Shown here: positions 7,961-50,285 of the stretch, one piece after another | How the letters are laid out: each line of letters begins with the position of its first letter | How positions within the stretch are numbered: position 1 is the first letter of the stretch | Assembly: GCF_000966285.1 (NCBI RefSeq) | Contig: NZ_KQ031391.1 | Span: 5,456,430-5,520,429 of the forward strand | Direction: 5' to 3' | Length of the DNA stretch: 64,000 nucleotides | DNA from: Pseudofrankia sp. DC12 | GTDB taxonomy: Bacteria > Actinomycetota > Actinomycetes > Frankiales > Frankiaceae | The notes under the pieces: model-generated | Told to the model about the DNA's origin: nothing | Seen by the model: the letters and a program-made list of their open reading frames with translations, nothing else | The model's database searches: none | Program-made: the position numbers and the translations under genes

Positions 7961-9126
7961 CGCGTCTCTCCTTGCGGCTCGCGCTCACCCGGTTCGCGGC
8001 TGAGCAGGCAGACGAGGTTCTGCTGCAGGCACGGACCGGAGGTCGCGTGCGCCAGCGCCCGGCCGTGGCCCTGCTCGCGGATCGCCCGGGCGGCCTCGAC
8101 GACCCGGACCAGCCCGGTGGCCATCACCGGGTTCGCGGCCAGCGCCCCACCCGAGGGGTTGACGACGCAGTCCGCCGGCAGGCCGAGCGCGTCCCGCAGG
8201 ATGATCTCTTCGTGGCTGTAGGTGGCGGACAGCTCCGCGACCTCGACCGGCCCACCGCAGCCGAGGCCGGCGGCCTGCGCGGCCTTCCGGGTCGACACCG
8301 AGTCGGTGAGGTCCCGCATGCCAGGCTGGTGCGGCTCGATGAAGTGCTCCAGGCCGGTGATCCACACCGGCCTGATCCCGTGCTTGGCGGCCAGCCGGTT
8401 CGCCACGGACGCGGTCGCGAGCACGAGCGCGCACGCCCCGTCCGTCACCGGCGGCGCGTCATGCACCCGCAGCGGGGAGCGCACGTACTCAGCCGCCAGC
8501 AGCGCGTCGATCTCGGCGTCCGAGGGCGCGTCCGGGCGCTCGGTCAGGCCGCGGCCGGCCGCCGCGACCGCAGGGACCGCGTGGGGGTTGGCGGCGGCGG
8601 CCTGCCGGGCCCGCGCGGCGACAGCGGCCAGGTCACGCTCGGTCGCCGTCCCGGTGTCCAGCAGCGCCCGTGCCTGCAGCGCGGCCAGCGACAGCGGGTC
8701 GACCCCGAGCGGCGCCAGGTAGTACGGGTCGGTCTGCAGGTTCAGCACCCGGGCGAGGTCGCCGCTCGAGGACTTGCCGGAGCCGAAGACCAGCGCCGTG
8801 CGTTCGTCGCCGATCAGCAGCCGCACCCAGGCCTCGTGCAGCGCCCAGGCCCCGTCCATCTCGACGTGCGACTCGCGGATCGGCGGCCAGGCGCCGACCG
8901 CGTCGAGGTTCGCGACGAAGGTGAAGGTGCCGCCCGACAGGTAGTCAGCGCTGCCGGAGCAGGTGAAGTCGATCTCCTTGCGCTCCAGTCCCGCGCTGAC
9001 CAGGGCCCGGGTGACGACGTCCAGGCACAGCTGCACCTCGGTCGACTCGGCGAACTCGCTCATCGGCGACAGGGCGTAGCCGACGATCGCGACCGGCTCG
9101 CCGAATACCCGTTCGTTGTCTGTCAT
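7957..9126 (-). CDS. ltp4: Thiolase-like protein, Ltp4-like
   Basis: 389-residue thiolase-fold protein resembling mycobacterial Ltp4 (Rv3522): DFTCSGSADYLSGGTF, ESHVEMDGAWALHEA, VFGSGKSSSGDL, NPSGGALAANPVMATG and ATSGPCLQQNLV. The normal active-site Cys segment is replaced by ESHVEMDGAWA, so it is unlikely to be a classical thiolase on its own and probably forms a heteromer with the Ltp3-like protein. The ATG at 9126 gives the standard family N-terminus; the frame upstream to 9267 runs through a repeat element and is not expected to be translated. Only a modest GGGGTG ribosome site precedes it. Confidence 0.88.
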   Translation of the reverse strand: MTDNERVFGEPVAIVGYALSPMSEFAESTEVQLCLDVVTRALVSAGLERKEIDFTCSGSADYLSGGTFTFVANLDAVGAWPPIRESHVEMDGAWALHEAWVRLLIGDERTALVFGSGKSSSGDLARVLNLQTDPYYLAPLGVDPLSLAALQARALLDTGTATERDLAAVAARARQAAAANPHAVPAVAAAGRGLTERPDAPSDAEIDALLAAEYVRSPLRVHDAPPVTDGACALVLATASVANRLAAKHGIRPVWITGLEHFIEPHQPGMRDLTDSVSTRKAAQAAGLGCGGPVEVAELSATYSHEEIILRDALGLPADCVVNPSGGALAANPVMATGLVRVVEAARAIREQGHGRALAHATSGPCLQQNLVCLLSREPGEREPQGETR

Positions 9127-9208
9127 GTCTGCACCCCTGCTGAGCTCGGTCGCGCGCGGAATGACTGCTGAGCTCCGTCGGCAGCGAGCTCCGGCCCCGT
9201 CCTTGCTG

Positions 9209-9256
9209 CCCGACCTCCCAAATCGGCTTCGCCGATTCGGCAGGGACCCTGCCGAC
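9209..9256 (-). repeat. Dispersed repeat, copy 1 (GATCGGCGAAGCCGAT-type core)
   Basis: Read on the minus strand: GGGTCCCTGCCG, then AATCGGCGAAGCCGATT, then TGGGAGGTCGGG. The core is a perfect palindrome around GAA. The same layout recurs at 10547-10604 and 31781-31824. This copy lies between the OB-fold gene and the Ltp4-like gene. Confidence 0.65.
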
Positions 9257-9283
9257 GGGACCTCCACTCGCTGCCTGCCGCGC

Positions 9284-10366
9284 TCAGAAGACCCGGTCCA
9301 GGTAGCGCTCGACGGGCAGGTCCGGCTCGCCGGTCGGGCGCCAGCCGGCGATCGCGCCGGTGGTGGCGCCCCAGCCGCGGTTGCCGAACTCGTCGGCGCT
9401 GCGCTCGGCCTCGGGCAGCCAGACCGCCTCGACCCGCATGCCCGGCCGTACGTCCTCGTTGGCGACGTCGACGACGGGCTGGAGGCCCAGCAGCGCCTCG
9501 ACCTCGTCGAGCAGCACCGAGACCCGCACGAACGGCTCGGTCTCCTTCTGGCCCGGATACGCCACCGGGGTGACGATCGTGAAGTTCGTGACGACGCCCC
9601 GGTCGGGCAGCACCAGGTCCTGGCTCTCGTCGAGCGGGATCCCGTCGATCGGGCAGAAGTCGCGGGGCGGCGCGTAGACCTTCGCGCAGGTCGGGCAGCG
9701 CTGGCCGATCAGCCTGCCGGCCATCATCGAGCGGGCGTACCGCTCGCCGGCCGGGGCGAGCGCCTCCTTGTAGGTCAGCGACGACCAGAACTCCATCGTG
9801 GCCACCGGCTCGCCCGGTCCGGCCGCGGCTCGGGCCGCCGCGTCGACGATGCCGGGGACGGCCTCGGCGCAACCGGCGGTCTCCTCGGGAACGAAGTACG
9901 CGAGGTCGTCCGGGCGGCCCTTCGGCTCGGCCCGGAACCGGGCGACCACCCGCAGCCCGCTACGCAGCGCGCCCTCGGGGGCGTCGACGACATGCATCAG
10001 GCTGGTATCGGCCCCGTCGAGCTGGATCAGCGCGAAGGCGAACGGCCGGTCGAGCGGGTGGCGCGCGTCCGGAACCGGCACCCAGGTCCAGGTCCAGACC
10101 GTGCCGGCCGGGCCGACGTCGACCAGCTCGCCGGACGTGGCCGCTCCGGTGTCCGGGTCATACTCCAACGGCGGGCAGAGCACCCGCGCGCCGCTGCGGA
10201 CACCGGTGATCCGGCCGGCGGCGAGCGCGATGAAGTACCCGCCGACGACCGGGCCGAGGCTGCGGCGGTACGGGAACTCGACGGTGTTGGTGACGATCCT
10301 GGGCACGGTCGCTGCCGCGGAGGTCTCAGGGCTTTCGACCTCGGATGCCCCAGCTGACACAGGCAA
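9284..10366 (-). CDS. Tandem DUF35 OB-fold protein with one zinc ribbon (Rv3521-like)
   Basis: 360-residue acyl-CoA-associated OB-fold protein. Two DUF35-type domains are visible: residues about 30-150 (lacking a zinc ribbon) and about 190-330 with the ribbon CPTCAKVYAPPRDFCPIDG. DUF35 proteins pair with thiolase-fold Ltp proteins; Rv3521 in mycobacteria sits beside ltp3 and ltp4 in the same way. The start is a TTG at 10366, chosen for the AGGAGG ribosome site five bases upstream. It is first in a four-gene minus-strand operon; KstR-type boxes lie 90-130 bases upstream. Confidence 0.85.
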   Translation of the reverse strand: MPVSAGASEVESPETSAAATVPRIVTNTVEFPYRRSLGPVVGGYFIALAAGRITGVRSGARVLCPPLEYDPDTGAATSGELVDVGPAGTVWTWTWVPVPDARHPLDRPFAFALIQLDGADTSLMHVVDAPEGALRSGLRVVARFRAEPKGRPDDLAYFVPEETAGCAEAVPGIVDAAARAAAGPGEPVATMEFWSSLTYKEALAPAGERYARSMMAGRLIGQRCPTCAKVYAPPRDFCPIDGIPLDESQDLVLPDRGVVTNFTIVTPVAYPGQKETEPFVRVSVLLDEVEALLGLQPVVDVANEDVRPGMRVEAVWLPEAERSADEFGNRGWGATTGAIAGWRPTGEPDLPVERYLDRVF

Positions 10367-10457: not shown

Positions 10458-10496
10458 AACGTGTTGCTGTTCTACCGCAAAATAAGAACAGGTTCT
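10458..10496 (-). promoter_or_regulatory. KstR-type operator pair
   Basis: AGAACAGGTTCT at 10485-10496 is a perfect palindrome and matches the KstR consensus TnnAACnnGTTnnA at all but the first base. A second core, AACGTGTT, is at 10458-10465. On the minus strand the palindrome runs straight into TTATTTT, a plausible -10, so a repressor here would block the OB-fold/ltp4/ltp3/cyclase operon. Confidence 0.72.
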
Positions 10497-10546
10497 AGGG
10501 TGAGCGCCCCGAACGGACGCGGAGCGACCGCGGGGCGCTCCGCCTC

Positions 10547-10604: not shown

Positions 10605-10748
10605 CGCGCCCTCCCGGCGCTTACGGCCCCGCGGTGTGAATGTCGGTGGTCAGAGTTGATCTGGGGTCGGTTTCGTGGTTGCGTCCGGCCACTCGCCGTC
10701 GCCCTGGTTGCGATTAGCCCGCCCGTGAAAACGTTGCATGATCGATTG

Positions 10749-10760
10749 AGAATGTGTTCT
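10749..10760 (+). promoter_or_regulatory. KstR-like box in front of the Liv operon
   Basis: AGAATGTGTTCT differs from the palindrome AGAACnnGTTCT at one position; against TnnAACnnGTTnnA there are two mismatches. It lies about 100 bases before the livHM-like start and runs into CTATGT, a possible -10. Together with 10485-10496 it would give each divergent promoter its own site. Confidence 0.5.
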
Positions 10761-10860
10761 ATGTCTTCACGTGTGGCTGTGGCGTAGGCCACAATGATCG
10801 ACGGCCGGGATCGTCCGAGCGGGCTGCGGCCGGCCGACAGAGGAGACGGGAGGTCGGCGC

Positions 10861-13104
10861 ATGCACGAGTTCCTGGTCTTCACGATCAGTGGCCTGACGA
10901 CGGCCGGGATCTACGCGATCAGCGCGTCCGGGCTGACCCTCACCTACGTCACCACCGGCGTGTTCAACATCGCCCACGGCGCGACCGGCATGCTCGCCGC
11001 GTTCGTCTACTGGCAGTTGCGCTACGGCTGGGGCTGGCCGACACCGGTGGCGCTGCTGCTCTGCGTCTGCGTAGCCGCCCCGCTGTTCGGGCTGCTGCTG
11101 GAACGGGTGGTGATGCGCCGGCTCGCCGGCGCCCCCGAGACCACCAGGCTGGTCGTCACCGTGGCGGTGCTCGTCGTCCTGGTCTCGGTCGACCAGTGGA
11201 TCTGGGACCCCAGCGAGTTCCGCGGCTCGCGGGAGCTGTTCGCCGGCCGGGGCGTCCATCTCGGCGACATCCAGGTGCCGTACAACGATCTGATCGTCCT
11301 GCTGGTCGCGGCGGCGGTCGCCGGCGCGCTGTGGCTGTTGCTGCACCGCAGCCGGGCCGGCATCGCGATGCGGGCCCGGGTCGACGACCCGGCGCTCGCG
11401 ACGCTGAACGGTGCCCGGCCGCGGACGTCGGCGCGGCTGGCCTGGATGATCGGCACCGCACTGGCGGCGCTCGCCGGCATCCTGATCGCGCCCAAGCTGA
11501 CCATGTCGGCCATCCCGCTCACGCTGCTCATCGTCAACGCCTACGCGGCCGCCGTCATCGGGAGGCTGCGCAGCCTTCCGATGACGTTCGCCGGCGCGCT
11601 CGTCGTCGGGCTGCTGTCCGACTTCGCCGTCGGCTACCTGCCGAAGATCAGCTACGGCCAGCAGTACCTGCGCGGCGTGCTGCCGGTGGTGCCGGTCCTG
11701 GTGCTGCTGGTGGCGTTGCTGGTGCTGCGGGCCTCCCGGCTGCGCGGCCGGCCGTCGCTGGCCGTCCGGGAGATCACCCCGACGCCGACCTGGGCCGGTG
11801 GGCTGTGGTTCTGCACCGCGGTCCTGTTCGCCGCGCTGATCGCCGCGACGACGATGCGCCCGGCCGACCTGTTCGCCTCCACCTCGATGTGGGGGCTCGC
11901 GATCGTCGGCCTGTCGATGGTGCCACTGGTCGGCTACGCGGGCCGCATCTCGCTGTGCCAGCTGAGCTTCGCCGGGATCGGCGGCGCGGTCGTCGCGCAC
12001 GCCGGGCACGGCGGCGATCCGGCGGCCCTGCTGCTGGCCGCCGCCGTCGCGGCCGTCGTCGGCGCCGTCGTCTCACTGCCGGCGCTGCGGCTGTCCGGGA
12101 TCTACCTGGCGCTGCTGACCGGCGCGTTCGCCGTCACACTGGACAACTGGATCTTCCAGCTGCCGTCGTTCACCGTCGCCGGCCACCGCTTCGACTTCTT
12201 CGAGGGCGGCACGCTGTCCGTCGACCGGTTCCGGCTCGGGTCCTTCCACACCGACTCCTCGAAGGCGTTCTTCTTCACCGGCGCGGTGCTGTTCGTCGCC
12301 GCGGCCCTCGTCGTCATCGCGGTGCGGCGCAGCGAGCTCGGCCAGCGGCTGATCGCGGTCAAGGAGAGCCCGGCGGCGTCGGCCACGCTCGGGATGAACG
12401 TCCGGCTGACGACGTTGGTCGTGTTCACCCTCTCGGCCGCGATCGCCGGGCTCGGCGGCGGTGTCTACGCCTCGGCGGTGCGCTCGACCACCGCGGACGC
12501 GTTCAGCTTCTTCACCGGGCTGACGCTGCTGCTGCTCGTCGTGGTCGGCGGGGTGAGCTCGATCGGCAGCGGGCTGGCCGCCGGCGTGCTGCTCGGCAGC
12601 GCCGCCGTCAGCAGCGCCGCCGGGGACTCGGCGGGCAGGGTCACCGCGACCGTCACCGGACTGGCCGCGCTCGCGCTGGCCGCCAACCCGAACGGCCTGA
12701 TCCCCTCGGTGCTGCGGCCCGCCTACGAGCCGGTGCGCCGGGCGCCCGTCGTGCTCGTCGGCGCGGTCGGCGTCGTGGCCGCGTTCTGGGCGCTGGAGCT
12801 GGCCCACCTGGTCACCGGCGGGCTGTTCCTCGTGGTCGTCGCGGTGGTCGCGGCCGCGGCGCCGCTGGTCGCGCGGGCCGTCGTCGGCGGCTCCTGGGCG
12901 GCGGCCGCGCCGAACCCGGCGCTGGCCGCCGTCAGCGCCCGGGCGCCGGCCGAGGGGCCGGACGCCGGGCTGTCGGGCCCGCTGGAGTGGCTCGGCTTCG
13001 ACGCGCCGGTGAGCCGGGCCGACCTCGACGTGCTCGACGCCCGGCTCGCGCTGGACACCGTCGATCCCGGTCTGCCGCGGGAGGTCCGCGTTGGTGTTGC
13101 TTGA
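10861..13104 (+). CDS. Liv-type ABC permease, LivH-LivM fusion
   Basis: 747-residue inner-membrane protein carrying both permease halves of a branched-chain-amino-acid-type (HAAT) ABC importer. Residues about 1-290 are LivH-like (ISASGLTLTYVTTGVFNIAHG is the typical opening), and about 325-650 are LivM-like (LSMVPLVGYAGRISLCQ, then VKESPAASATLGMNV). Two extra helices and a soluble tail of about 100 residues follow. The ATG has GGGAGG upstream. The gene starts an operon with two ATPases, overlapping the first by 14 bases. No binding protein is encoded here; the one at 46630 is a candidate partner. Position behind a KstR-like box suggests a steroid-derived or other hydrophobic acid as substrate rather than amino acids; that is inference. 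Confidence 0.9.
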   Translation: MHEFLVFTISGLTTAGIYAISASGLTLTYVTTGVFNIAHGATGMLAAFVYWQLRYGWGWPTPVALLLCVCVAAPLFGLLLERVVMRRLAGAPETTRLVVTVAVLVVLVSVDQWIWDPSEFRGSRELFAGRGVHLGDIQVPYNDLIVLLVAAAVAGALWLLLHRSRAGIAMRARVDDPALATLNGARPRTSARLAWMIGTALAALAGILIAPKLTMSAIPLTLLIVNAYAAAVIGRLRSLPMTFAGALVVGLLSDFAVGYLPKISYGQQYLRGVLPVVPVLVLLVALLVLRASRLRGRPSLAVREITPTPTWAGGLWFCTAVLFAALIAATTMRPADLFASTSMWGLAIVGLSMVPLVGYAGRISLCQLSFAGIGGAVVAHAGHGGDPAALLLAAAVAAVVGAVVSLPALRLSGIYLALLTGAFAVTLDNWIFQLPSFTVAGHRFDFFEGGTLSVDRFRLGSFHTDSSKAFFFTGAVLFVAAALVVIAVRRSELGQRLIAVKESPAASATLGMNVRLTTLVVFTLSAAIAGLGGGVYASAVRSTTADAFSFFTGLTLLLLVVVGGVSSIGSGLAAGVLLGSAAVSSAAGDSAGRVTATVTGLAALALAANPNGLIPSVLRPAYEPVRRAPVVLVGAVGVVAAFWALELAHLVTGGLFLVVVAVVAAAAPLVARAVVGGSWAAAAPNPALAAVSARAPAEGPDAGLSGPLEWLGFDAPVSRADLDVLDARLALDTVDPGLPREVRVGVA

Positions 13105-13921
13105 GGTCCGCGACGTGACGGTTCGCTACGGCGGGCACGTGGCGCTGAACGGGGTCAGCCTCGGGGTCGAGGCCGGCCGGGTCACCGGGCTGATCGGGCC
13201 GAACGGTGCGGGGAAGACCAGCCTGTTCAACGTCCTGACCGGCCTGCTCACTCCCAGCTCGGGGCAGGTGCTGCTCGACGGCGAGGACGTCACCGGCCTC
13301 GCTCCCTACCGGCGGGCCCGGCGGGGCATGGCCAGGACCTTCCAGATCCTGGAGCTGTTCGGCCAGCTCACCGTGCTGGAGAACGTGCAGCTCGCGGCCA
13401 GGCTGCGCCGCCGCATGCCGGGCCGCCACTCGCGGACCGGCGTGGCATGGCAGCGCGGTCCCGGCACGGTCGACCCGCGTGCCCTGCTCGACCGGGTCGG
13501 CCTGGCCGCGATGGCCGACCGGCGGGCCGACACCCTGCCGACCGGGCAGGGCCGGCGCCTCGAGCTCGCCAGGGCGCTGGCCGTCCGGCCCCGGGTGCTG
13601 CTGCTCGACGAGCCCGCGAGCGGGCAGGACGAGGCGGAGACGGCCGCTTTCGGCGACCTGCTCGGCGACCTCGCCGACGAGGGCCTGGCGATCCTGCTCG
13701 TCGAGCACGACATGACGCTGGTCATGGGCGTGTGCGCACACTTGTACGTGCTGGACTTCGGCAGCCTGATGGCCGAGGGTGACCCGGCCGGCGTGCGGGC
13801 CGACCCGCGCGTGCGCGAGGCCTATCTCGGCACCGTTCCCGAGCCGGGCGGCCCAGCCGACGGGCTGACGCTCACGGGGCTGGCCGCGCCGGCCGGGCAC
13901 GCCGCCGGGGAGCCGCGATGA
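13091..13921 (+). CDS. ABC transporter ATPase, LivG-like
   Basis: Cytoplasmic ATPase of about 276 residues energising the LivHM-like permease. Walker A is GPNGAGKTS, Walker B VLLLDEPASG, and the switch histidine is in LLVEHDM. The signature motif is atypical, LPTGQGRRLELARAL instead of LSxGQ. The LivG-specific insert (RRARRGMARTFQ) is present. The start may be TTG 13091 or GTG 13094; a GGAGG lies upstream of both, inside the permease gene. It overlaps livF by four bases (ATGA). Confidence 0.92.
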   Translation: MVLLEVRDVTVRYGGHVALNGVSLGVEAGRVTGLIGPNGAGKTSLFNVLTGLLTPSSGQVLLDGEDVTGLAPYRRARRGMARTFQILELFGQLTVLENVQLAARLRRRMPGRHSRTGVAWQRGPGTVDPRALLDRVGLAAMADRRADTLPTGQGRRLELARALAVRPRVLLLDEPASGQDEAETAAFGDLLGDLADEGLAILLVEHDMTLVMGVCAHLYVLDFGSLMAEGDPAGVRADPRVREAYLGTVPEPGGPADGLTLTGLAAPAGHAAGEPR

Positions 13922-14739
13922 TCGCCGGGCTGCGGCAGCGCCGGCCCGTGGACGCGCCGGACGTGGCGCCGGCCGCTGCTCCTGGAGCGCCGCTCGTCGA
14001 GGTCCGCGGGCTGCGGGCCGGCTACGGCCGGGTCGAGGTCCTCCACGGCGTGGACCTCTCCGTCCGGGCGGGTCAGGTGCTGGCGATCCTCGGTCCGAAC
14101 GGGGCCGGCAAGTCGACGCTGCTGCGGGTGCTGGCCGGCCTGCACCCGTGCGCCGGCGGCGACGTCGTGCTCGGCGGGCGGCGGGTCACGGGCGCGGACC
14201 CGGTCGACCTCGCCCGCCGCGGGCTGTGCCTGATCCCGGAGGGGCGGGGCGTGTTCCCGAGTCTCACGGTCCGGGAGAACCTGCGGATGATGACGCACCG
14301 GCGGGCCGGGATGTCGGTGGCCGAGGTGGAGGAGCGGGCGGTCGCGCGGTTCCCGCGGCTCGGCCAGCGGCTGCACCAGCCGGCCGGCACGATGAGCGGC
14401 GGCGAGCAGCAGATGCTCGCCCTGGCCCGGGCGATCGTGGCCGAGCCAGCGGTGCTGCTGCTCGACGAGCTGTCGATGGGACTCGCACCCCGGGTCGTGG
14501 CCGAGCTGTACGAGACCGTGCGGGCTGTCGCCGCCGAGAACGTGACGATCATCGTGGTCGAGCAGTTCGCGGCGACGGTCCTGGCGGTCGCCGACATCGC
14601 CGCGGTGCTGGTCGAGGGACGGGTCGCCGTGGCCGGCCCGCCCGCCGAGATCGCGGGCCGGCTGTCGAGCGCCTACCTGCTCGGCCAGCGCCCGCCTGAC
14701 GACTCCGGCGTGGCGGCCCCGCGCGCCGCCGCGCCATGA
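13918..14739 (+). CDS. ABC transporter ATPase, LivF-like
   Basis: 273-residue second ATPase of the importer. Walker A GPNGAGKST, signature MSGGEQQMLALARA, Walker B VLLLDELSMGLAP and switch EQFA are all intact. The extra 20 residues at the N-terminus are low-complexity. It is coupled to livG by an ATGA overlap and followed 80 bases later by a small membrane protein gene in the same direction. Confidence 0.92.
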   Translation: MIAGLRQRRPVDAPDVAPAAAPGAPLVEVRGLRAGYGRVEVLHGVDLSVRAGQVLAILGPNGAGKSTLLRVLAGLHPCAGGDVVLGGRRVTGADPVDLARRGLCLIPEGRGVFPSLTVRENLRMMTHRRAGMSVAEVEERAVARFPRLGQRLHQPAGTMSGGEQQMLALARAIVAEPAVLLLDELSMGLAPRVVAELYETVRAVAAENVTIIVVEQFAATVLAVADIAAVLVEGRVAVAGPPAEIAGRLSSAYLLGQRPPDDSGVAAPRAAAP

Positions 14740-16931: not shown

Positions 16932-17585
16932 TCAGTGTCCGGCCGGTATGCCGCCGAAGCCTGAACCGTGCCCGCGCCGCCCGTCTCGGGCGTCAGGAGG
17001 TCGAGCCGCGCCGTCCCAGCCTCGGTCTGGGGCGTTGCCGCGGTCGGACGACCCTTCGGCGAGCAGCTGACGGATCAGCGCCTCGTCGCCAGGCGAGAGG
17101 GCGGCGACGAAGTGGGTCAGCGCTGGGCGGTGGTCGGCCTGCTCGTCGAGCAGCCGGTTCATCCGCCAGGCGACCAGGCTCGCGGCGTCGGACTTCGCGA
17201 CATAGAGGAACGCGCGACCGGCTCGTCGGCGCGTCACGACGCCCTTGCCATGCAGCCGGGTGAGCGTCGTCACGACGGCGCTGTAGGACAGCGCGGGGCC
17301 GCCGTTGAGCCGCTCCCGTACCTGTGCGGGCGAGAGCTCGCGGCGCGCGGTGTGCAGCACCGTGAGAATCTCGGCCTCCAGGGACCCCGGTGACCGGCGC
17401 CGGCCGCGTCCAGCGGCGGCGGCCAGCCCCACTCCGGTCATCGCTCCGGCGTGGTCGTCGAGGTCGTCAGCGCCGTAGGCGCCGGCCTCGGTGAGGGCCC
17501 CGTCCAGCAGGCCGGTCCCACCCAGGCGGTCGTCACGGGCATCGTCCGCGTTTGCGTCGGCATCGGATACCACGCCTATGACCAT
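16932..17585 (-). CDS. BlaI/MecI/CopY-family repressor
   Basis: Winged-helix repressor. The HTH core is GSLEAEILTVLHTARRELSPAQVRERL, split here as GSLEAEILTVLHTA and LSPAQVRERL, followed by SYSAVVTTLTRLHGKGVV and a wing RRRAGRAFLY. A helical dimerisation part ends ALSPGDEALIRQLLAE, with an unusual Gly/Arg/Asp-rich tail of about 40 residues. The start is uncertain: ATG 17585 has a GGGG five bases away but adds an acidic 48-residue leader; ATG 17441 gives the usual family N-terminus. It is transcribed with the M56 peptidase. Confidence 0.82.
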   Translation of the reverse strand: MVIGVVSDADANADDARDDRLGGTGLLDGALTEAGAYGADDLDDHAGAMTGVGLAAAAGRGRRRSPGSLEAEILTVLHTARRELSPAQVRERLNGGPALSYSAVVTTLTRLHGKGVVTRRRAGRAFLYVAKSDAASLVAWRMNRLLDEQADHRPALTHFVAALSPGDEALIRQLLAEGSSDRGNAPDRGWDGAARPPDARDGRRGHGSGFGGIPAGH

Positions 17586-17767
17586 ACGGACCCCGGCGAC
17601 CTCTATGCGAGGGGTGGGGTGGCTACGGCGCGTCGAGGCCGGACCGCGCCGGCATGTGGCGGACGCCGCGCACCCGCTCGGGCACGATTCGCGCACCTTC
17701 TCCCTAGGCTGGCCCCTGAACCGGGCCTGGATCGGCGCCCGCTGCGGGCGGCCCGGCGATCCGCCCG

Positions 17768-17781
17768 ACCAAGCGCTTGGT
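17768..17781 (+). promoter_or_regulatory. KstR2 operator, perfect palindrome
   Basis: ACCAAGCGCTTGGT matches the KstR2 consensus AnCAAGnnCTTGnT at every fixed base and is itself a perfect palindrome. It lies 20 bases upstream of the kstR2-like GTG, between the expected -35 and -10 positions, as for autorepression. Confidence 0.88.
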
Positions 17782-17789
17782 TGACAGGC

Positions 17790-17795
17790 GATAAT
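17790..17795 (+). promoter_or_regulatory. -10 hexamer, leaderless kstR2 promoter
   Basis: GATAAT ends six bases before the GTG at 17802 and there is no Shine-Dalgarno, so transcription should begin at or next to the start codon. Confidence 0.55.
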
Positions 17796-17801
17796 CCTGC
17801 C

Positions 17802-18455
17802 GTGAGCACCTCGTCAACCCGCGCCGGCGGGCCGGGCCGTGGCGGCCGTCTCGGGCGGCCGACCGCCGCGGGGGAGTCGGAGCGGCGGGCGGCCATCGTC
17901 GAGATCGCCGCCGGGCTGTTCGCCGAGCGCGGGTACCGGGCCACCACGGTCCGCGAGATCGCCGACGCCGCCGGCATGCTCTCCGGCAGCCTGTACCACC
18001 ATTTCGACTCCAAGGAGTCGATCATCGATGAGCTGCTGTCGAGCTTCCTCACCGAGCTGCAGGCCGAGTACGCCGCGATCGCGGCTGTCCCGGCGCCGGC
18101 GACCGACACGATCGCCGCACTGGTCCGGTCGGCGTTCGCGGCGATCGCGCGGCACCGGGCCGCCGTCACCGTCTTCCAGAACGAGCGCGGCTACCTCGCG
18201 ACGCTGCCGCGGTTCGGCTACCTGCGCACCTCCGAGGAGGCCAGCCAGCGGCTGTGGCTGGACGCCCTGCGGGCCGGGATCGCCGCCGGTGAGCTGCGTG
18301 CGGACCTCGACCCGAAGCTCACCCACCGGTTCCTGCGGGACGCGATCTGGGTGTCCGTGCACTGGTATCGCCCGGATGGGCGGCTGGCACCGGGCGAGCT
18401 GGCCGAGCATTTCCTCGCGACCGTCTTCGACGGCATCCGCGCCCGGCCCGCGTAG
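17802..18455 (+). CDS. kstR2: KstR2-like TetR repressor of HIP (ring C/D) catabolism
   Basis: 217-residue TetR-family repressor. The DNA-binding half (IVEIAAGLFAERGYRATTV, REIADAAGMLSGSLYHHF, DSKESIIDELL) and the ligand half (FAAIARHRAAVTVFQNE, FLRDAIWVSVHWYRPDG) follow mycobacterial KstR2 (Rv3557c) almost segment by segment. In mycobacteria KstR2 binds HIP-CoA (the CoA ester of the C/D-ring propionate) and controls the HIP genes. Here it is preceded by a perfect KstR2 palindrome and followed by fadE30- and ipdF-like genes that carry another such site. The GTG start fits a leaderless transcript. Confidence 0.9.
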   Translation: MSTSSTRAGGPGRGGRLGRPTAAGESERRAAIVEIAAGLFAERGYRATTVREIADAAGMLSGSLYHHFDSKESIIDELLSSFLTELQAEYAAIAAVPAPATDTIAALVRSAFAAIARHRAAVTVFQNERGYLATLPRFGYLRTSEEASQRLWLDALRAGIAAGELRADLDPKLTHRFLRDAIWVSVHWYRPDGRLAPGELAEHFLATVFDGIRARPA

Positions 18456-31970: not shown

Positions 31971-31984
31971 AGCAAGCGCTTGTG
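31971..31984. promoter_or_regulatory. KstR2-type operator between SDR-LLM and ipdABC operons
   Basis: AGCAAGCGCTTGTG matches AnCAAGnnCTTGnT except for the last base; the inner CAAGCGCTTG is a perfect palindrome. It lies 56 bases before the ipdA ATG and about 240 before the divergent SDR start. Confidence 0.72.
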
Positions 31985-32039
31985 TTACGTACGCCGTGCG
32001 GTCCGGACACCGGCCGCACGCTCGGCTGAGGGGCGGTTG

Positions 32040-32921
32040 ATGGGTGCGAAGCTGACGACGATGAATGCCGCCGTCGCGGCGGTCGAGAGCGGGATGACCG
32101 TCGGCATCGGCGGCTGGGGCTCGCGCCGCAAGCCGATGGCCCTGATCCGGGCGCTCGCCCGCGGCCCGGCCACCGACCTGACTGTCGTCACCTACGGCGG
32201 CCCCGACGTCGGCCTGCTCGCTGCCGCTGGGAAGATCCGCGTGCTGGTCAGCGGGTTCGTCTCGCTCGACTCGATCGCGCTGGAGCCGCACTTCCGCGCC
32301 GCCCGTCAGCGCGGCGAGATCGAGTTCCGCGAGCTGGACGAGGGCATGCTGCAGTGGGGCCTGCTCGCCGCCGCGCACCGGCTCCCGTTCCTGCCGATCC
32401 GGGCCGGCCTCGGCTCGGACGTCCCGACGACCTTCCCCGGCCTGCGGACCGTCACGTCGCCCTACCCGGACGGCGAGGAGCTCGTCGCCGTGCCGGCGCT
32501 TACGCTCGACGTCACGTTCGTGCACGCCAACCGGGCTGATGCCGCCGGTAACGCGGCGTTCCTCGGCCCCGACCCGTACTTCGACGACCTGTTCTGCCTC
32601 GCCGCGCGCCACCGGGTGCTGTCCTGCGAGCGGGTGGTCGAGACCGCCCAGCTGACGAAGGAAGCCCCGGTCCAGGCGTTGCGCATCAACCGGATGATGG
32701 TCGACGCGGTTGTCGAGACGCCGAACGGCGCCCACTTCACCAGCTGCGTGCCCGACTACGGCCGCGACGAGGCGTTCCAGCGTGCCTACGCGGCCGCGGC
32801 GGGCGGCGGCTCGGACTGGGCCGCCTTCCACGAGCGGTACCTCTCCGGCGACGAGGCCGCGTACCAGGCCGCGGTCCAGGCCCAGCGGCCGCTTAGGGGC
32901 GAGAAGGAGACCGCTCGATGA
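32040..32921 (+). CDS. ipdA: IpdA, alpha subunit of COCHEA-CoA hydrolase (CoA-transferase fold)
   Basis: 293-residue family-I CoA-transferase-like subunit. The segments MTVGIGGWGSRRKPMALIRA, LTVVTYGGPDVGLL, ELDEGMLQWGL, LPFLPIRAGLGSDV and NRMMVDAVVETPNGAHFT follow mycobacterial IpdA (Rv3551). IpdAB uses the CoA-transferase fold to hydrolyse a ring: it opens the last steroid ring (C) of COCHEA-CoA. ATG 32040 is chosen for AGGGG six bases upstream and the family N-terminus. Its stop overlaps the ipdB start (ATGA). Confidence 0.93.
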   Translation: MGAKLTTMNAAVAAVESGMTVGIGGWGSRRKPMALIRALARGPATDLTVVTYGGPDVGLLAAAGKIRVLVSGFVSLDSIALEPHFRAARQRGEIEFRELDEGMLQWGLLAAAHRLPFLPIRAGLGSDVPTTFPGLRTVTSPYPDGEELVAVPALTLDVTFVHANRADAAGNAAFLGPDPYFDDLFCLAARHRVLSCERVVETAQLTKEAPVQALRINRMMVDAVVETPNGAHFTSCVPDYGRDEAFQRAYAAAAGGGSDWAAFHERYLSGDEAAYQAAVQAQRPLRGEKETAR

Positions 32922-36354: not shown

Positions 36355-36368
36355 TAGAACAGGATCTA
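36355..36368 (+). promoter_or_regulatory. KstR operator before kstR
   Basis: TAGAACAGGATCTA fits TnnAACnnGTTnnA with one mismatch (GAT for GTT). The right half merges with TCTAAT (36365-36370), a good -10. The site lies 47 bases before the GTG, as expected for autorepression. Confidence 0.75.
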
Positions 36369-36415
36369 ATTTTTTGGGGTCGGCGGTTGCGCCGAGCGCC
36401 AGTGAGGAGGCCCCG

Positions 36416-37060
36416 GTGAGCGAGGCGGTGGCCGCGGCGGCCACGCCGCCGGCGAAGGGCGTGCCCGCGACGACGGCGACTCCCTCCCAGCAGGCGCGCC
36501 GGGAACGCATGCTTTCCGCGGCGCTCGCCCTGGCCAGCCGCGGTGGCTACGACGAGGTGCAGATGCGCGAGGTGGCCGAACAGGCCGGGGTCGCGCTGGG
36601 CACCCTGTACCGGTACTTCCCGTCAAAGGTGCACCTGCTCGCCTCGGCGCTGGCCCGTCACCTGGCCGGCCTTCGCGACGCGGTGCTCGACCAGCCGTCC
36701 GGCTCCGACGACCCGGCGACCAGGGTGCTGGCGATGATGAACCGCCTGGTCGACGAGCTCAGCCGGGACCGGCTGGTCGCCGAGGCCCTCATCCAGGCGA
36801 TGACGCTGGCGTCAGCGACCATCGGCACCGAGATCGACGACGTCGACGAGGCGATGATCGGTCTGATCGGGGTCGCCGCGTTCGGGTCCGACCACGTCGT
36901 CGACGAGCGGGACAGGCTGATAACCAACATCATCGGCAAGGTCTTCCTCAGCGACCTGCGCTACTGGCTTGGGGACCGGATGACCCTCGACGGCGTCCGC
37001 GCCTCCCTCGGCGACACCGTCGCCGTCGTCCTCGCCGGTCAGCAGGCCCTCGTCAGGTAG
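36416..37060 (+). CDS. kstR: KstR-like TetR repressor of steroid catabolism
   Basis: 214-residue TetR repressor. The DNA-binding part RMLSAALALASRGGYDEVQM, REVAEQAGVALGTLYRYF, PSKVHLLASALARH follows mycobacterial KstR nearly residue for residue, and the C-terminal half (LVAEALIQAMTLASATIGTE, KVFLSDLRYWLG) is of the same type. KstR responds to CoA thioesters of cholesterol side-chain intermediates. GTG 36416 is fixed by AGGAGG five bases upstream; a TTG at 36374 in the same frame is rejected. A KstR-type operator precedes it. Confidence 0.88.
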   Translation: MSEAVAAAATPPAKGVPATTATPSQQARRERMLSAALALASRGGYDEVQMREVAEQAGVALGTLYRYFPSKVHLLASALARHLAGLRDAVLDQPSGSDDPATRVLAMMNRLVDELSRDRLVAEALIQAMTLASATIGTEIDDVDEAMIGLIGVAAFGSDHVVDERDRLITNIIGKVFLSDLRYWLGDRMTLDGVRASLGDTVAVVLAGQQALVR

Positions 37061-39538: not shown

Positions 39539-39552
39539 TAGAACCTGTTCTA
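39539..39552. promoter_or_regulatory. KstR operator, perfect palindrome
   Basis: TAGAACCTGTTCTA fits TnnAACnnGTTnnA at every fixed base; the two half-sites are perfect complements, apart from the central CT pair. It runs into TACACT (39551-39556), a possible -10 for the plus-strand dehydrogenase genes. Confidence 0.88.
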
Positions 39553-39754
39553 CACTCTAGCCGCGACAGGCCGCCACGCAAGGGGCCTGATGCTCCGTCA
39601 GAAACCGTCATCCTCGTCGGTCCTTCACGCCGGACGGCTGAAGAGCCCGAGGACACGGACCCGGGGGAACGCGAGGAACCACGGCCCTCGGTCGGGCGGC
39701 CCGGCGACGGGCGCGCCGCCCGCGGCCACTTCAGCGGACGAGGGGGCACACGCC

Positions 39755-44516: not shown

Positions 44517-46271
44517 CTACCTGGTCGGGACCGTGCCGGTGTCCCGGCCGGAGCGCAGCAGCGTGCCAGGGGTGGCGCCGGTCGCCCGGCCGTCGGTGAC
44601 GATGCGGGTGCCGTTGACGAAGACCGCCTCAATGCCCACCGGCCCGGCGGTCAGCCGGGCGGCCCCGGCCGGCAGGTCGCGCACCAACCTGGCTGGTTCG
44701 CTGTCGACGGTCGCGGGATCGAAAACCACCAGGTCGGCGGCGTAGCCGGTGGCGACCATCCCGCGCCCGCGCAGGCCGAACGCGGCGGCCGGCTCGCCGG
44801 TCATCATCGCGACGGCCCGCTCCAACCCGACGAGCCTGCGGCCGCGCAGGCAGTCGCCGAGAAACCGGGTCGGGTAGGGGGCGCCGGCCATCCGGTCGAG
44901 GTGGGCACCCGCGTCCGAGCCGCCGAGCAGCACGTCCTCGTGCTCCCAGGTCCGCGCGCGCAGGGCCCAGGACTCGGGGTTGTCGTCCGTCGGCATCGGC
45001 CACAGGACGGTACGCAGGTCGTCGGCCGCGGTGATCTCGACCAGCGTGGCGAACGGGTCCTGGCCACGCTCGGCCGCGATGTCCGCGACGACCCGGCCGG
45101 ACAAGCCCTCGTTCGCGGGGGAGTAGGTGTCCCCGATGACGTAGCGGCCGAAGCTCGTCAGCCGCAGCAGCACCCCGGCCGCCGGGTCGTGGGCCGCCGC
45201 CAGCAGCCGGGCCTGGACCGTCGGGTCGCGCAGAGCGTCGACCCGCGCCGGGGTCGGCAGCCGCATGACCTCGCCCCAGCCGGGGATCAGGTGCAGGGCG
45301 CAGAAGGTACCCAGGCTCATGTTCATCGGGACGAGCGTCGGCATGGTCAGCGCGATCACCCGGCCGCCCAGCTCGCGGGCCCGCCGGGACGCCTCCAGCT
45401 GGCGCGGCACCCGCAGCGGCGCCGCCGAGCCGATCGTGAGCACGTTCCAGTTCAGCGGCCGGCCGGCCGCGGCGGACAACTCGCCGAGCAGCTCGATCTC
45501 GTCGTCGCTGAACATGTCCAGGCAGCCCGGGACGATGCCCTCCAGGAACGTCCCCTCGTGCTCACCGACCGCCCGCGCCAGCGCCAGCAGCTCGTCCCGG
45601 CTGGCCCAGCGGGACGCGACCGGCTGGCCGTCGCCGTCGCTGTGCGTCCCGGAGAGGGTGGTGGACAGGCCCAGCGCCCCGGCGTCCAGCGCGGCGTGCA
45701 GGCCCGCGGCCATCGCGGCGACGGCGCCGTCGTCCGCCGCCGAGCCGATCGCCGCCGGGCCCATGACGTAGCGGCGCAGCGCGCAGTGCCCGAGCAGGAA
45801 GCCCGCGTTCACGGCAATCCGCCCGTCGAGCCCGTCGAGGTACTCGGCGAACGACTCCCAGCCCCAGGCGACGCCCGACTCCAGCGCCTCCAACGGCATC
45901 CCCTCGACTCTGGCCATCATCCGGCGCAGGTAGTCGGCCTCGTCGGGGCCGGGCCGCCCGTCACGCGGGCGCAGCGGGGCGAGCGTGAAACCGCAGTTGC
46001 CGCCCAGCACGGTCGTCACGCCGTGCTGGCTGGAGGGGCTGGCGCTGGGGTCCCACCAGAGCTGCGCGTCGTAGTGGGTGTGCACGTCGATGAAGCCGGG
46101 GCAGACGACCTTGCCGGCGGCGTCGACGGTCAGTGCCGCGTCGCCGGCCGGCAGGGTGCCGGGAGCGCCGACCGCCACGATCCGGCCGTCCCGCACGCCC
46201 ACGTCCGCGGCGCGCGCCGGCGCCCCGGTCCCGTCGACGAGCTGCCCGCCCTGAACGACCAGATCGAGCAT
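44517..46271 (-). CDS. N-acyl-D-amino-acid deacylase-like amidohydrolase
   Basis: 584-residue metal-dependent amidohydrolase. The opening DLVVQGGQLVDGTGAPARAA and metal site GFIDVHTHYDAQLWWDP (about residues 60-75) with GGNCGFTLAPL define the D-aminoacylase group; GHCALRRYVMG and the GGSDAGAHLD metal Asp are also present. These enzymes cleave acyl groups from amino acids or related amides. ATG 46271 has AGGAGG five bases upstream. It is divergent from a binding-protein/ligase operon, with a KstR box and a second palindrome between them. Confidence 0.9.
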   Translation of the reverse strand: MLDLVVQGGQLVDGTGAPARAADVGVRDGRIVAVGAPGTLPAGDAALTVDAAGKVVCPGFIDVHTHYDAQLWWDPSASPSSQHGVTTVLGGNCGFTLAPLRPRDGRPGPDEADYLRRMMARVEGMPLEALESGVAWGWESFAEYLDGLDGRIAVNAGFLLGHCALRRYVMGPAAIGSAADDGAVAAMAAGLHAALDAGALGLSTTLSGTHSDGDGQPVASRWASRDELLALARAVGEHEGTFLEGIVPGCLDMFSDDEIELLGELSAAAGRPLNWNVLTIGSAAPLRVPRQLEASRRARELGGRVIALTMPTLVPMNMSLGTFCALHLIPGWGEVMRLPTPARVDALRDPTVQARLLAAAHDPAAGVLLRLTSFGRYVIGDTYSPANEGLSGRVVADIAAERGQDPFATLVEITAADDLRTVLWPMPTDDNPESWALRARTWEHEDVLLGGSDAGAHLDRMAGAPYPTRFLGDCLRGRRLVGLERAVAMMTGEPAAAFGLRGRGMVATGYAADLVVFDPATVDSEPARLVRDLPAGAARLTAGPVGIEAVFVNGTRIVTDGRATGATPGTLLRSGRDTGTVPTR

Positions 46272-46310
46272 TGTCGCCTCCTCCCGCTCCAGGTCCGACA
46301 GTAGCCCGGT

Positions 46311-46329
46311 ACCTGACGGGTCGTCAGGT
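46311..46329 (-). promoter_or_regulatory. TetR-type palindrome before the amidohydrolase gene
   Basis: ACCTGACGGGTCGTCAGGT: 8-bp half-sites around GGT. It lies 40 bases upstream of the amidohydrolase start and does not fit KstR or KstR2, so a further TetR-type regulator is likely. It could instead be a hairpin in RNA. Confidence 0.5.
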
Positions 46330-46431
46330 TCTTCACCGCGCCGCCGCGGCGGCCGTGCGGACGGCCGGCCTGGCGCCCCGCCGCGTGCTGACGAGCGGCC
46401 AGGACTTCGCCAGATTCACTTTCGCCAAAGA

Positions 46432-46445
46432 TGCAACCTGTTCTA
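46432..46445 (+). promoter_or_regulatory. KstR operator, full consensus match
   Basis: TGCAACCTGTTCTA fits all fixed bases of TnnAACnnGTTnnA and runs into TAGTCT (46444-46449), a plausible -10. It lies about 185 bases before the binding-protein gene and 160 from the divergent amidohydrolase. Confidence 0.78.
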
Positions 46446-46629
46446 GTCTGTGGCCGCGCTCGCGTCGCTACGACATCTGTCGTGACCGCCGCCGGCCCCG
46501 CGCGTCGGCGCCGCTCGCGGCTGTGGCTGGCGGATTGTCAACCGGACGGCGCACGTCCCGGCCGCCGCGCGACCGGTCCCGTGCCGACCGCAGGACTGAC
46601 CACGGACGACGACCCCACGGAGAGGTCCG

Positions 46630-48054
46630 ATGGCCCGCAGAAGCTCCCGCCCGTGTCTCGAGAGGCCGCGACCGCGCCTCGGCGCCCGCCGCGGCCTGGT
46701 CCGGTTGCCGGTGCTCGCGGCAGCCAGCGCGCTGCTGCTCGTCGTCGTGGGCTGCACCAGGTCCACGAACGAGACCGAGACCGGTGGTGGCGACGCCGTC
46801 GGGTCACCCACCGCCGCGGCGCCGGCCACGGCCGGCGCAGGCGACTTCGGTACCGAGAAGGGCATCTGCGGCCCGGGCTCCGCCCGCACCGCGACCGGCC
46901 GCGGCGTGACCGCGTCGTCGATCACGATCGGCACCATGGGCGACCCGGGCAGCACCGTCACCCCGGGCCTGGGGCAGGAGTTCTTCGACGTCGCCGACGC
47001 CTTCGCCGCCTGGTGCAACAAGGCTGGCGGCATCAACGGGCGCAAGATCGTGGTCAAAAGGCACGACGCCAAGCTCACCGACGTCGCGGCCCGCACCCTC
47101 GACGCCTGCCAGACCGACTTCATGCTGGTCGGCGGCGGCAACGTCCTCGACGCGCCCGGCGTGCGGCCGAGGATCGACTGCAAGCTCGGCGCGGTCCCGG
47201 CCTACGGCGTGTCGCCACAGTCGCTGAACGCCCCGCTTCAGCTGCGGGCGGCGCCGAACACCGCGAACCGCTACCCGGTCGCCGGGTTCCTCGCGATGGC
47301 CCGGATGTTCCCCGACGCGATGAACGCGATCGGCATCAGCGGCAGCTCGCTCGCGGACATCCGCCCGCAGGGCCTGCGGCTGCAGGAGGCGCTCACCCAG
47401 CTCGGCTACAAGGTGACCGACTACCAGGAGCCGCCGGCGCTGGTGACGAACTGGCGCCCGTACGTCGAGGAGCTCAAGGGCAAGGGAGTCCAGGGCTACG
47501 AGGCGATCGGCGTCCAGGACCTGACCCCGGTGGTCACGGCGATGAACGACGTCGGCCTGAACCTCAAGTACATGATCATTGAGAACCAGCTCTACGACCC
47601 AAAGACCATCGCGGGCGCGAAGAGCACGAAGTTCCCGCCGACGTGGCTGGTCATGGACCATCTGCCGTTCGAGCTGGCCGCGCAGAGCCCGGTCACCCAG
47701 GAGGCGGTCGATCTCGTCCACGCGACGGTCCCGAACGCGAAACTAACCGCCTTCACCGCGCTCGCGCTGAGCTCCTGGGTGCTGTGGGCCAAGTCGGCGA
47801 CGGCATGCGGCGACACCCTGACCGTCGACTGCGTCCTCGCGAAGGCGGGCACGCAGACCGCGTGGACCGCCGGCGGCCTCTACCCGAAGATCGACCTCAG
47901 GCCAGGTGAGCAGGAGGTCTCGCACTGCTACCTGCTGATGAAGGTCACGCCGACCGGCTTCGTCTACGACAAGACCGCGACGGCGCCCAACCAGGGCTTC
48001 TTCAACTGCTCCGACAACAACGTCGTCACGCTCGCCAACCCGTTCACGACATGA
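46630..48054 (+). CDS. Liv-type ABC substrate-binding lipoprotein
   Basis: 474-residue extracytoplasmic binding protein of the branched-chain-amino-acid (Peripla_BP_6) type. A basic start, hydrophobic stretch and lipobox LVVVGC (Cys about residue 41) mark a lipoprotein. The mature part opens ASSITIGTMGDPGSTVTPGLG and has the classic FAAWCNKAGGINGRKIVVKR and DFMLVGGGNVLDAPGVRP. The ATG follows GGAGAGG. No permease is adjacent; the LivHM/G/F set at 10861 lacks a binding protein and carries a similar operator. An operon with the acyl-CoA ligase, 50 bases downstream, hints that the ligand is an organic acid. Confidence 0.9.
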   Translation: MARRSSRPCLERPRPRLGARRGLVRLPVLAAASALLLVVVGCTRSTNETETGGGDAVGSPTAAAPATAGAGDFGTEKGICGPGSARTATGRGVTASSITIGTMGDPGSTVTPGLGQEFFDVADAFAAWCNKAGGINGRKIVVKRHDAKLTDVAARTLDACQTDFMLVGGGNVLDAPGVRPRIDCKLGAVPAYGVSPQSLNAPLQLRAAPNTANRYPVAGFLAMARMFPDAMNAIGISGSSLADIRPQGLRLQEALTQLGYKVTDYQEPPALVTNWRPYVEELKGKGVQGYEAIGVQDLTPVVTAMNDVGLNLKYMIIENQLYDPKTIAGAKSTKFPPTWLVMDHLPFELAAQSPVTQEAVDLVHATVPNAKLTAFTALALSSWVLWAKSATACGDTLTVDCVLAKAGTQTAWTAGGLYPKIDLRPGEQEVSHCYLLMKVTPTGFVYDKTATAPNQGFFNCSDNNVVTLANPFTT

Positions 48055-48103
48055 CCGCGGCCCCCCAGACCCGGGCCGCGGACGACCGCACGGGAGTGGC
48101 GTG

Positions 48104-49792
48104 GTGAGCGGCGAGACGGCGGGAGCGTTACCCGGGGCGGCGAGCCGGCCGGTCAACTTCGCGGACATGCCGGAGCTGGTCGCCGACGCGGTACCCGACC
48201 GGCTCGCGCCGCCGCAGGCCGGCGACCTGTACCGCCCGTCCTTCCTGCCGGATCTGCTGATCGCCGCGCTCGGGCGCAACCCCGACCGACCAGCGGTCTA
48301 CATCGGCGACGTCGCGCTCACCGCCGCCGAGGTCGCCGCCGAGATCAGCCGGTACGCGCAGGCATACGCGTCGGTCGGCCTGCGGGTCGGCAGCCGGACC
48401 GCGATGCTGTCGCCGAACCGGCCCGAGGTGCTGTTCGCGATGGGCGCGAACATGATCACCGGCTGCCGTTCAACCTCGCTGCACCCGCTCGGCTCGCTTG
48501 ACGACCACGTCTACGTCCTCACCGACGCCGAGGTCGAGACGCTCGTCGTGGACGAGAAGTTCGCCGAGCGGGCGGCCGAGTACGTCCGCCGGGTGCCGAC
48601 CCTGCGCCAGGTGGTCACCTTCGGGTCGACCGATCTCGGCCCCAACCTGCTGGAGCTCGCCGCCAGGTTCGGCCCGAAGCCGCTGAAGGCGCCGGATGTC
48701 GGCCCCGACGACGTCGGCGGCCTCACCTACACCGGTGGCACGACTGGCAAGCCCAAGGGCGTCATGGGCACCTACCGTGGCGCCGCCGCCATGACGAACA
48801 TCCAGCTCACCGAGTGGCAGTGGCCCGACGAGCCGCGGTTCCTGATGTGCACCCCGCTCAGCCACGCGGGGGCCGCCTTCTTCATCCCGGTGCTGCTGCG
48901 CGGCGGCTGCCTGGTCGTGCTGCCCGGCTTCGACCCCGGCCTGGTGATCGAGGCCATCGAGAAATACAAGATCAACTCGACCATGCTGGTACCGACGATG
49001 ATCTACGTGCTGCTCGACCACCCGAAGCTCGCGACCACCGATGTCTCCAGCCTGAAGACGATCTACTACGGTGCCGCCGCGATGGCGCCGGCCCGGCTCG
49101 TCGAGGCGATCGGCCGGTTCGGCCCGATCTTCTTCCAGTACTACGGCCAGTCCGAGTCGCCGATGACGATCACCGTGCTGCGCAAGGAGGAGCACGACCT
49201 CTCCCGGCCCGAGCGGCTGGCCAGCTGCGGCCGGCCGGTGCCGTGGGTGCGGGTCGCGCTGCTCGACGAGGACGGCAACGAGGTCCCCGACGGCGAGCCG
49301 GGGGAGATCTGCGTGCGAGGCCCGCTGAACTGCGGCGGCTACTGGAAGCTGCCCGAGCAGACGGCCGAGCTGTTCCGGCACGGCTGGCTGCACACCGGTG
49401 ACATCGCCCGGCGCGACGCCGAGGGGTTCCTCTACATCGTCGACCGCAAGAAGGACATGGTGATCTCCGGCGGGTTCAACATCTTCCCGCGTGAGGTCGA
49501 GGACGTGCTCGCCACTCACCCGGCGGTGGCCGCCGCGGCCGTCATCGGCGTGCCGGACGAGAAGTGGGGCGAGGCCGTGAAGGCCGTCGTCGTGCGCCGC
49601 CCCGGCGTCACCACCCCCGAGGACGTGCTCACCGGCGAGCTGACCGCGCTGGTCCGGGACCGCAAGGGTTCCCACCACGCGCCGAAGACCGTCGACTACG
49701 CCGACTCCATCCCGGTAAGCCCGCTGGGCAAGCCCGACAAGAAGGCCCTACGCGCCCGGTACTGGTCAGACACGACCCGCCAGGTGAACTGA
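48104..49792 (+). CDS. Acyl-CoA ligase, FadD8-like
   Basis: 562-residue AMP-binding ligase. LTYTGGTTGKPKGVMGTY (phosphate loop), FLMCTPLSHAGAAFF, QYYGQSESPMTIT, LHTGDIARRD, KKDMVISGGFNIFPREVE and the lysine region SPLGKPDKKALRARYW closely follow mycobacterial FadD8, including LHPLGSLDDHVYVLTD. It would convert an imported acid to its CoA ester. Two GTG codons (48101, 48104) are possible starts, with GGGAG upstream. Same operon as the binding lipoprotein. Confidence 0.9.
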   Translation: MSGETAGALPGAASRPVNFADMPELVADAVPDRLAPPQAGDLYRPSFLPDLLIAALGRNPDRPAVYIGDVALTAAEVAAEISRYAQAYASVGLRVGSRTAMLSPNRPEVLFAMGANMITGCRSTSLHPLGSLDDHVYVLTDAEVETLVVDEKFAERAAEYVRRVPTLRQVVTFGSTDLGPNLLELAARFGPKPLKAPDVGPDDVGGLTYTGGTTGKPKGVMGTYRGAAAMTNIQLTEWQWPDEPRFLMCTPLSHAGAAFFIPVLLRGGCLVVLPGFDPGLVIEAIEKYKINSTMLVPTMIYVLLDHPKLATTDVSSLKTIYYGAAAMAPARLVEAIGRFGPIFFQYYGQSESPMTITVLRKEEHDLSRPERLASCGRPVPWVRVALLDEDGNEVPDGEPGEICVRGPLNCGGYWKLPEQTAELFRHGWLHTGDIARRDAEGFLYIVDRKKDMVISGGFNIFPREVEDVLATHPAVAAAAVIGVPDEKWGEAVKAVVVRRPGVTTPEDVLTGELTALVRDRKGSHHAPKTVDYADSIPVSPLGKPDKKALRARYWSDTTRQVN

Positions 49793-49973
49793 CCCGGCCC
49801 TCACCGTGGTGCGCGGGCGGCTGGGCCGGGCGACGCGGCCAAAGGGCGTGCGCCGGCTAGCTGCCCACGTAAGGATCTGAGAAACGGGCGCCGCGAGCGG
49901 CCCCGACGTCCGCCCGCCGGTCCATCCGCCCCTGTTGGACAGCGGTTCCACGCAACTGTGGTGAGGAGTAGCC

Positions 49974-50285
49974 ATGCCCGTCATCGTCGCGACCATGACC
50001 CCGAAGCCGGACCAGGTCGACGAGGTCCGCGCGATCCTGGTGGACCTCATCCCCGAGATGCACCAGGAACCGGGCTGCAAGCTGTACTCGTTGCACGAGG
50101 CCCCCGGCAAGTTCGTCTTCGTCGAAGAGTGGGCCGACGACGCCGCGATGGCCGCGCATGGCGCCGGTCCCGCGATCGGCAAGATGTTCAGCGCGTTGGA
50201 CGGCCGTCTCGACGGCCCGCCCGATCTCGTCTTCCTCACCCCCGTTCCCGCCGGTGACCCGGCCCTGGGCCAGCTGCGCCCCTGA
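49974..50285 (+). CDS. Antibiotic-biosynthesis-monooxygenase (ABM) family protein
   Basis: 103-residue dimeric alpha-beta-barrel protein. VIVATMTPKPDQVDEVRAIL, PEMHQEPGCKLYSLHE and KFVFVEEWADDAAMAAH are the usual ABM strands and helix. Members oxidise quinol-like compounds without a cofactor or act in stress responses; the role here is unknown. The ATG has GGAG upstream (GTGAGGAGTAGCC). Confidence 0.86.
   Translation: MPVIVATMTPKPDQVDEVRAILVDLIPEMHQEPGCKLYSLHEAPGKFVFVEEWADDAAMAAHGAGPAIGKMFSALDGRLDGPPDLVFLTPVPAGDPALGQLRP

Follow-up and report, generated by a model that had tools for sequence, protein, structure and literature searches.

Importers of the Liv/HAAT class (LivJ/K-HMGF) are built from a binding protein of the Type I fold, BPD_transp_2 membrane domains and two ATPases, LivG and LivF, and the genes for the binding protein and the permease usually sit side by side, an adjacency that is customary rather than strictly defining. 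Mce4 is a sterol importer under KstR control, and CamABCD of Rhodococcus jostii RHA1 is an ATP-binding cassette (ABC) importer linked to steroid-acid metabolites. Gel shifts by Kendall et al. (2007, PMC1995591) showed that KstR binds a motif lying between Rv0551c (fadD8) and Rv0552 of Mycobacterium tuberculosis, which makes KstR control of FadD8 a known arrangement. These are the systems we set beside a putative importer of Pseudofrankia sp. DC12, the subject of this article. Its genes lie in a stretch of 64,000 nucleotides (contig NZ_KQ031391.1, positions 5,456,430 to 5,520,429), which we call the window and whose numbering we use throughout. A preliminary description of the window had picked out, at 46432–49792, a Liv-type binding lipoprotein and a FadD8-like ligase behind a KstR-type operator. 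We found no paper tying KstR to a transporter of the branched-chain amino-acid type.

The Pseudofrankia system has the Type I binding-protein fold, the BPD_transp_2 domains and both ATPases of Liv/HAAT importers. It differs from them in a LivH–LivM fusion, in KstR-type operators, in extra cysteines and in a binding-protein gene 35 kb from the permease, where the usual adjacency is absent. It is a variant of a known transporter class, not a new class. With Mce4 it shares a proposed role, KstR-controlled steroid uptake, the proteins themselves being unrelated; to CamABCD it is likened by role alone. The explanation we think probably right is that the window encodes a split, KstR-controlled Liv-type importer for a steroid-derived acid, which would be activated with coenzyme A (CoA), and that this importer replaces Mce4. 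The evidence is read from sequence: conserved boxes and genes, co-distribution, mirrored trees, the loss of a ligase and the absence of Mce proteins. The window belongs to a Frankia/Pseudofrankia-group genome (G000) held on a single contig of 6.88 Mb; bacteria of the Frankia type live in soil and root nodules. Our family comparison set was 35 genomes, ten of which carry KstR and both halves of the importer, eight of the ten coming from one genus.

The operator predicted upstream of the binding-protein gene, TGCAACCTGTTCTA (46432–46445), lies 185 bp from the ATG of that gene and 161 bp from a divergent amidohydrolase gene (Amidohydro_3, 44517–46271, reverse strand). It had been described as a full consensus, which is true of the published loose core TnnAACnnGTTnnA, whose presence upstream of a gene marks a member of the KstR regulon, and untrue of the perfect palindrome TAGAACnnGTTCTA, from which it departs at two positions. 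Its right half is the half conserved among orthologs. In the window TNNAACNNGTTNNA is found twice, where 0.05 occurrences would be expected. Genome-wide, the loose core has 22 sites and the reversed control pattern eight; four of the core sites fall inside the 52 kb around the window cluster. All ten orthologs of the binding protein keep the box in their upstream regions, where it overlaps the longest invariant run, TGTTCTAGTCTGT. Upstream of the 23 paralogous binding-protein genes no site comes closer than four mismatches. For the two most distant orthologs the distance from the box to the amidohydrolase start is about 1.4 kb, so that the box goes with the binding-protein gene.

Boxes had been claimed for both loci, and both have them. 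Between the permease operon and the Ltp operon divergent from it lie AAGAACAGGTTCTA (10484–10497, one mismatch) and GAGAATGTGTTCTA (10748–10761, two mismatches), and across the ten genomes no 14-mer before the permease is better conserved than the second. A box stands before the permease in ten of ten orthologs, two of them weaker (three mismatches), and in both upstream regions, that of the binding protein and that of the permease, a KstR-type box falls in the most conserved 14-mers. A candidate regulator is encoded in the window. The KstR-like TetR protein encoded at 36374–37060 (forward strand) has a box of its own, TAGAACAGGATCTA, at 36355–36368; its closest solved structures in a PDB search are of M. 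tuberculosis KstR (E 1.8e-31), and its recognition helix is almost identical to that of the M. tuberculosis protein. A perfect KstR palindrome, TAGAACCTGTTCTA (39539–39552), stands upstream of an aldehyde dehydrogenase gene at 39590. Both loci are apparently KstR-controlled, and the 36374 protein would be what binds them.

The two genes at the centre of the preliminary description proved to be real. The binding lipoprotein (46630–48054, forward strand) matches PF13458 with 65.7 bits against a cut-off of 31.7; the ligase is taken up below. Besides its lipobox cysteine, Cys42, the binding protein has eight more invariant cysteines (80, 129, 160, 184, 393, 401, 433 and 460), and an AlphaFold2 model (mean predicted local distance difference test score 84.5) predicts a Liv-type fold. 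No NCBIfam family matches it. Equally, the absence of a permease beside it was borne out, the nearest PF02653 permease being that of the operon at 10861, 35 kb off. This operon has, as had been said, no binding protein of its own. It encodes, all on the forward strand, a fused LivH–LivM permease with two BPD_transp_2 domains (10861–13104; PF02653, 175 bits over two stretches), followed by ATPases of the LivG type (13091–13921) and the LivF type (13918–14739).

Are these the halves of one importer, as had been proposed? Orphan status alone is weak evidence, because 17 of the 28 PF13458 matches of the genome have no PF02653 match inside 10 kb. The same abundance of orphans speaks for the view that the loci are independent, the permease drawing on a different orphan and the lipoprotein of 46630 serving another permease or acting as a sensor. 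We hold this to be very improbable. Orthologs of the binding protein (at least 52% identity) and of the permease (at least 63%) occur in an identical ten of the 35 family genomes, exactly those with KstR, and in genus g6 only its two KstR-bearing members have them. The trees of the two proteins mirror one another (r = 0.987, 29 pairs); in both, the KstR-linked set is monophyletic and lies nearest to the same paralog group. Moreover, the next-nearest relatives in the family (32–36% and 41–49% identity for the two proteins) are encoded side by side at 12 of 13 loci, as are those of other families of the class at eight of ten (20 of 23 together), and the other binding proteins of the window genome score far below this family on its profile. 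It is therefore well supported that the binding protein and the 10861 permease belong together, and the two would form a complex.

In the nine other genomes the two genes are non-adjacent as well. The best reading of this pattern is a single ancestral operon of binding protein, permease, LivG and LivF, which would have been split in the KstR clade. Four paralog loci examined in the family had no KstR-cluster gene nearby, which, together with the paralogs' lack of a box, suggests that the link to steroids is confined to the clade of ten genomes. That clade is also a point of caution for the split importer as a whole: the ten genomes are related, eight of them in one genus, and their co-distribution amounts to few independent events.

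The ligase turned out to have a history. The nine other genomes encode a further ligase, of the FadD19 type and here called X, directly after the binding protein and before FadD8; the X of one of them (L024) scores 594.3 on NF005863/PRK07798, over the subfamily cut-off of 543. Compared with Frankia sp. AgB1.9, whose binding protein is 95% identical to that of the window, the window genome lacks 1688 bp here and has about 62 bp inserted after the binding-protein stop (48052–48209 region). What is left of X is a remnant of its 5' end (48115–48209, forward strand), fused in frame to FadD8 with the junction near 48209. The resulting FadD8-like ligase (48101–49792, forward strand) has a chimeric N-terminus whose first 36 or so residues derive from X. 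Its best PDB relative is FadD8 (8ivi, 641.8 bits), and it scores 752.6 on the FadD8 model NF004838, under the equivalog cut-off of 875. The deletion and fusion are unique to the window genome among the ten, and misassembly may underlie them.

Because X was deleted, the binding protein and FadD8 became neighbours; the "pair" of the window genome is a derived state and should not be taken as ancestral. The arrangement recalls the Rv0551c/Rv0552 locus, where FadD8 likewise has a divergent gene on the far side of a KstR site (a predicted one in the window), except that here the binding-protein gene, and in the relatives a FadD19-type ligase too, lies between box and FadD8. The amidohydrolase is presumably a homolog of Rv0552. 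Coupling of the importer to acyl-CoA ligases is supported in outline, since X follows the binding protein in nine of nine genomes and some related systems elsewhere have FadD, FadE and EchA genes as neighbours. FadD8 as the dedicated trapping enzyme is not supported, because the KstR/fadD8 layout was already known and the adjacency comes from the deletion. X appears the likelier CoA-trapping partner, and it is gone from the window genome. Its closest relative there belongs to a FadD19-type locus, with a gene of the EchA19 type and a perfect KstR palindrome beside it.

How the split importer would work can be set out in a few steps. The 36374 regulator would silence both loci until CoA thioesters of the pathway build up. 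On the outer side of the membrane the 46630 lipoprotein would then capture a carboxylic acid, passing it to the Liv-type ABC permease of 10861–14739, and an acyl-CoA ligase would convert the imported acid to its CoA ester and so trap it. The ancestral activating enzyme would have been the FadD19-type ligase encoded right after the binding protein; in the window genome FadD8, or the FadD19 paralog at 1.53 Mb, would have to substitute if the step persists. The cargo would most likely be a steroid-derived acid, either a side-chain acid or a partly degraded ring acid.

What points to steroids is the company the importer keeps. The window has a KstR2-like regulator (17451–18455, forward strand) with a perfect KstR2-type palindrome, ACCAAGCGCTTGGT, at 17768–17781, and an IpdA-like alpha subunit of the CoA-transferase of steroid C/D rings (31980–32921, forward strand) with a KstR2-type box of one mismatch at the gene start (31971–31984). 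KstR2 with IpdA is the C/D-ring module of 9,10-seco steroid degraders. Divergent from the permease, at 6806–10366 on the reverse strand, are genes for an OB_ChsH2-domain protein and for thiolase-like proteins of the PRK07937 and PRK08313 types, in what we take to be the order of Rv3521-ltp4-ltp3 in M. tuberculosis. KstR2, IpdA and these Ltp-like genes make a steroid acid our best guess for the cargo, or failing that a similar carboxylic acid. No Mce protein (PF02470) was matched in any of the ten genomes, that of the window included, and in such an Mce-less lineage the split importer would stand in for Mce4.

Several observations weigh against steroids. KstD (NF005882, PRK07843 type, E ≤ 1e-80) was not found in six of the ten genomes, among them that of the window, where full ring degradation is therefore doubtful; it was found in four members of the genus (G030, G031, G032 and, below the cut-off, G034). 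The 36374 regulator scores 155.6 on NF033703 against a KstR equivalog cut-off of 280, so its inducer may differ, and its ligand domain is divergent. The solved relative of the binding protein is also a poor guide to ligand. A single-sequence search found no PDB relative; a family profile was required, and its best sequence match (E 1.4e-11) is 4n03, a fatty acid ABC transporter substrate-binding protein from Thermomonospora curvata, which is also among the best fold matches of the model (template modelling scores 0.63/0.75); its identity of 16% makes for a weak transfer of ligand. On the side of steroids, T. curvata is an actinomycete with the ability to grow on cholate (PMC4810484). For the amino-acid-binding region of LivJ-type proteins the profile alignments were too uncertain to map residues.

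From these facts one may argue that the importer is real and KstR-controlled and brings in fatty, branched or isoprenoid acids, the KstR regulon of the lineage having shifted to side-chain-like or terpenoid acids. The missing KstD, the divergent ligand domain and the fatty-acid binder 4n03 would all fit, as would the general FadD, FadE and EchA genes next to which several related systems lie elsewhere. Against it stand the steroid-typical members of the same regulon (KstR2 and its boxes, IpdA, EchA19, the FadD19-type ligase and the Ltp-like genes) and the four members of the genus with KstD, and we consider it unlikely, if worth keeping in mind. Alternatively, the importer could scavenge what other bacteria release from partial steroid breakdown (perhydroindane or seco-steroid acids), for which ring A/B enzymes are unneeded. 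This would account for a C/D-ring regulator and IpdA in a genome where KstD was not found, and it has a precedent in CamABCD and CamM of R. jostii, which import cholate metabolites (PMC8399759). Against it, the ancestral partner ligase is of the FadD19 type, a family of side-chain acid ligases (M. smegmatis FadD19 is required for C24-branched sterol side chains; PMC6273163), and we regard this reading as quite unlikely.

The split, KstR-controlled importer of a steroid-derived acid, then, is the reading we keep, and it suggests how actinobacteria without Mce4 could import such acids. Frankiaceae now offer a concrete, testable candidate whose genes and operators are named and whose partner ligase is predicted. 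The split importer might even be the means by which non-mycolic actinobacteria without Mce proteins take up steroid acids, with the window genome perhaps scavenging acids partly degraded by other bacteria, a wider view that we put forward tentatively. At 6.9 Mb the window genome is smaller than most of its genus relatives (8.8–11 Mb), and it has KstR, KstR2 and IpdA with no KstD found, which may be a sign of decay of the steroid pathway.

Some smaller observations complete the description. No sigma-70-type promoter pattern or terminator pattern was found in 46272–46640, and an Rfam scan gave no match in 46200–50000. Downstream of FadD8 lies the gene of a small ABM-domain protein (49974–50285, forward strand), as it does in the six relatives of the genus whose region was read. 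Two further binding proteins of the same family, L125 (G051) and L128 (G257 C46), have no adjacent permease; L128 adjoins a FadD8-like ligase (33%), with an amidohydrolase (37%) nearby. At L031, a cytochrome P450 gene (8572–9890), possibly for a side-chain hydroxylase, is preceded at about 90 bp by the KstR-type box TAGAACCCGTTACA. Another family of the class, f18, has relatives of the amidohydrolase between genes for an LLM oxidoreductase and for an aldehyde dehydrogenase, not beside FadD8, so the FadD8/amidohydrolase layout could not be traced outside the family, the mycobacterial case being taken from PMC1995591. In f18 the ortholog (65–69%) sits in a conserved operon of LLM oxidoreductase, amidohydrolase and aldehyde dehydrogenase (L164–L183), whose other two members match the window genes at 38165 and 39590.
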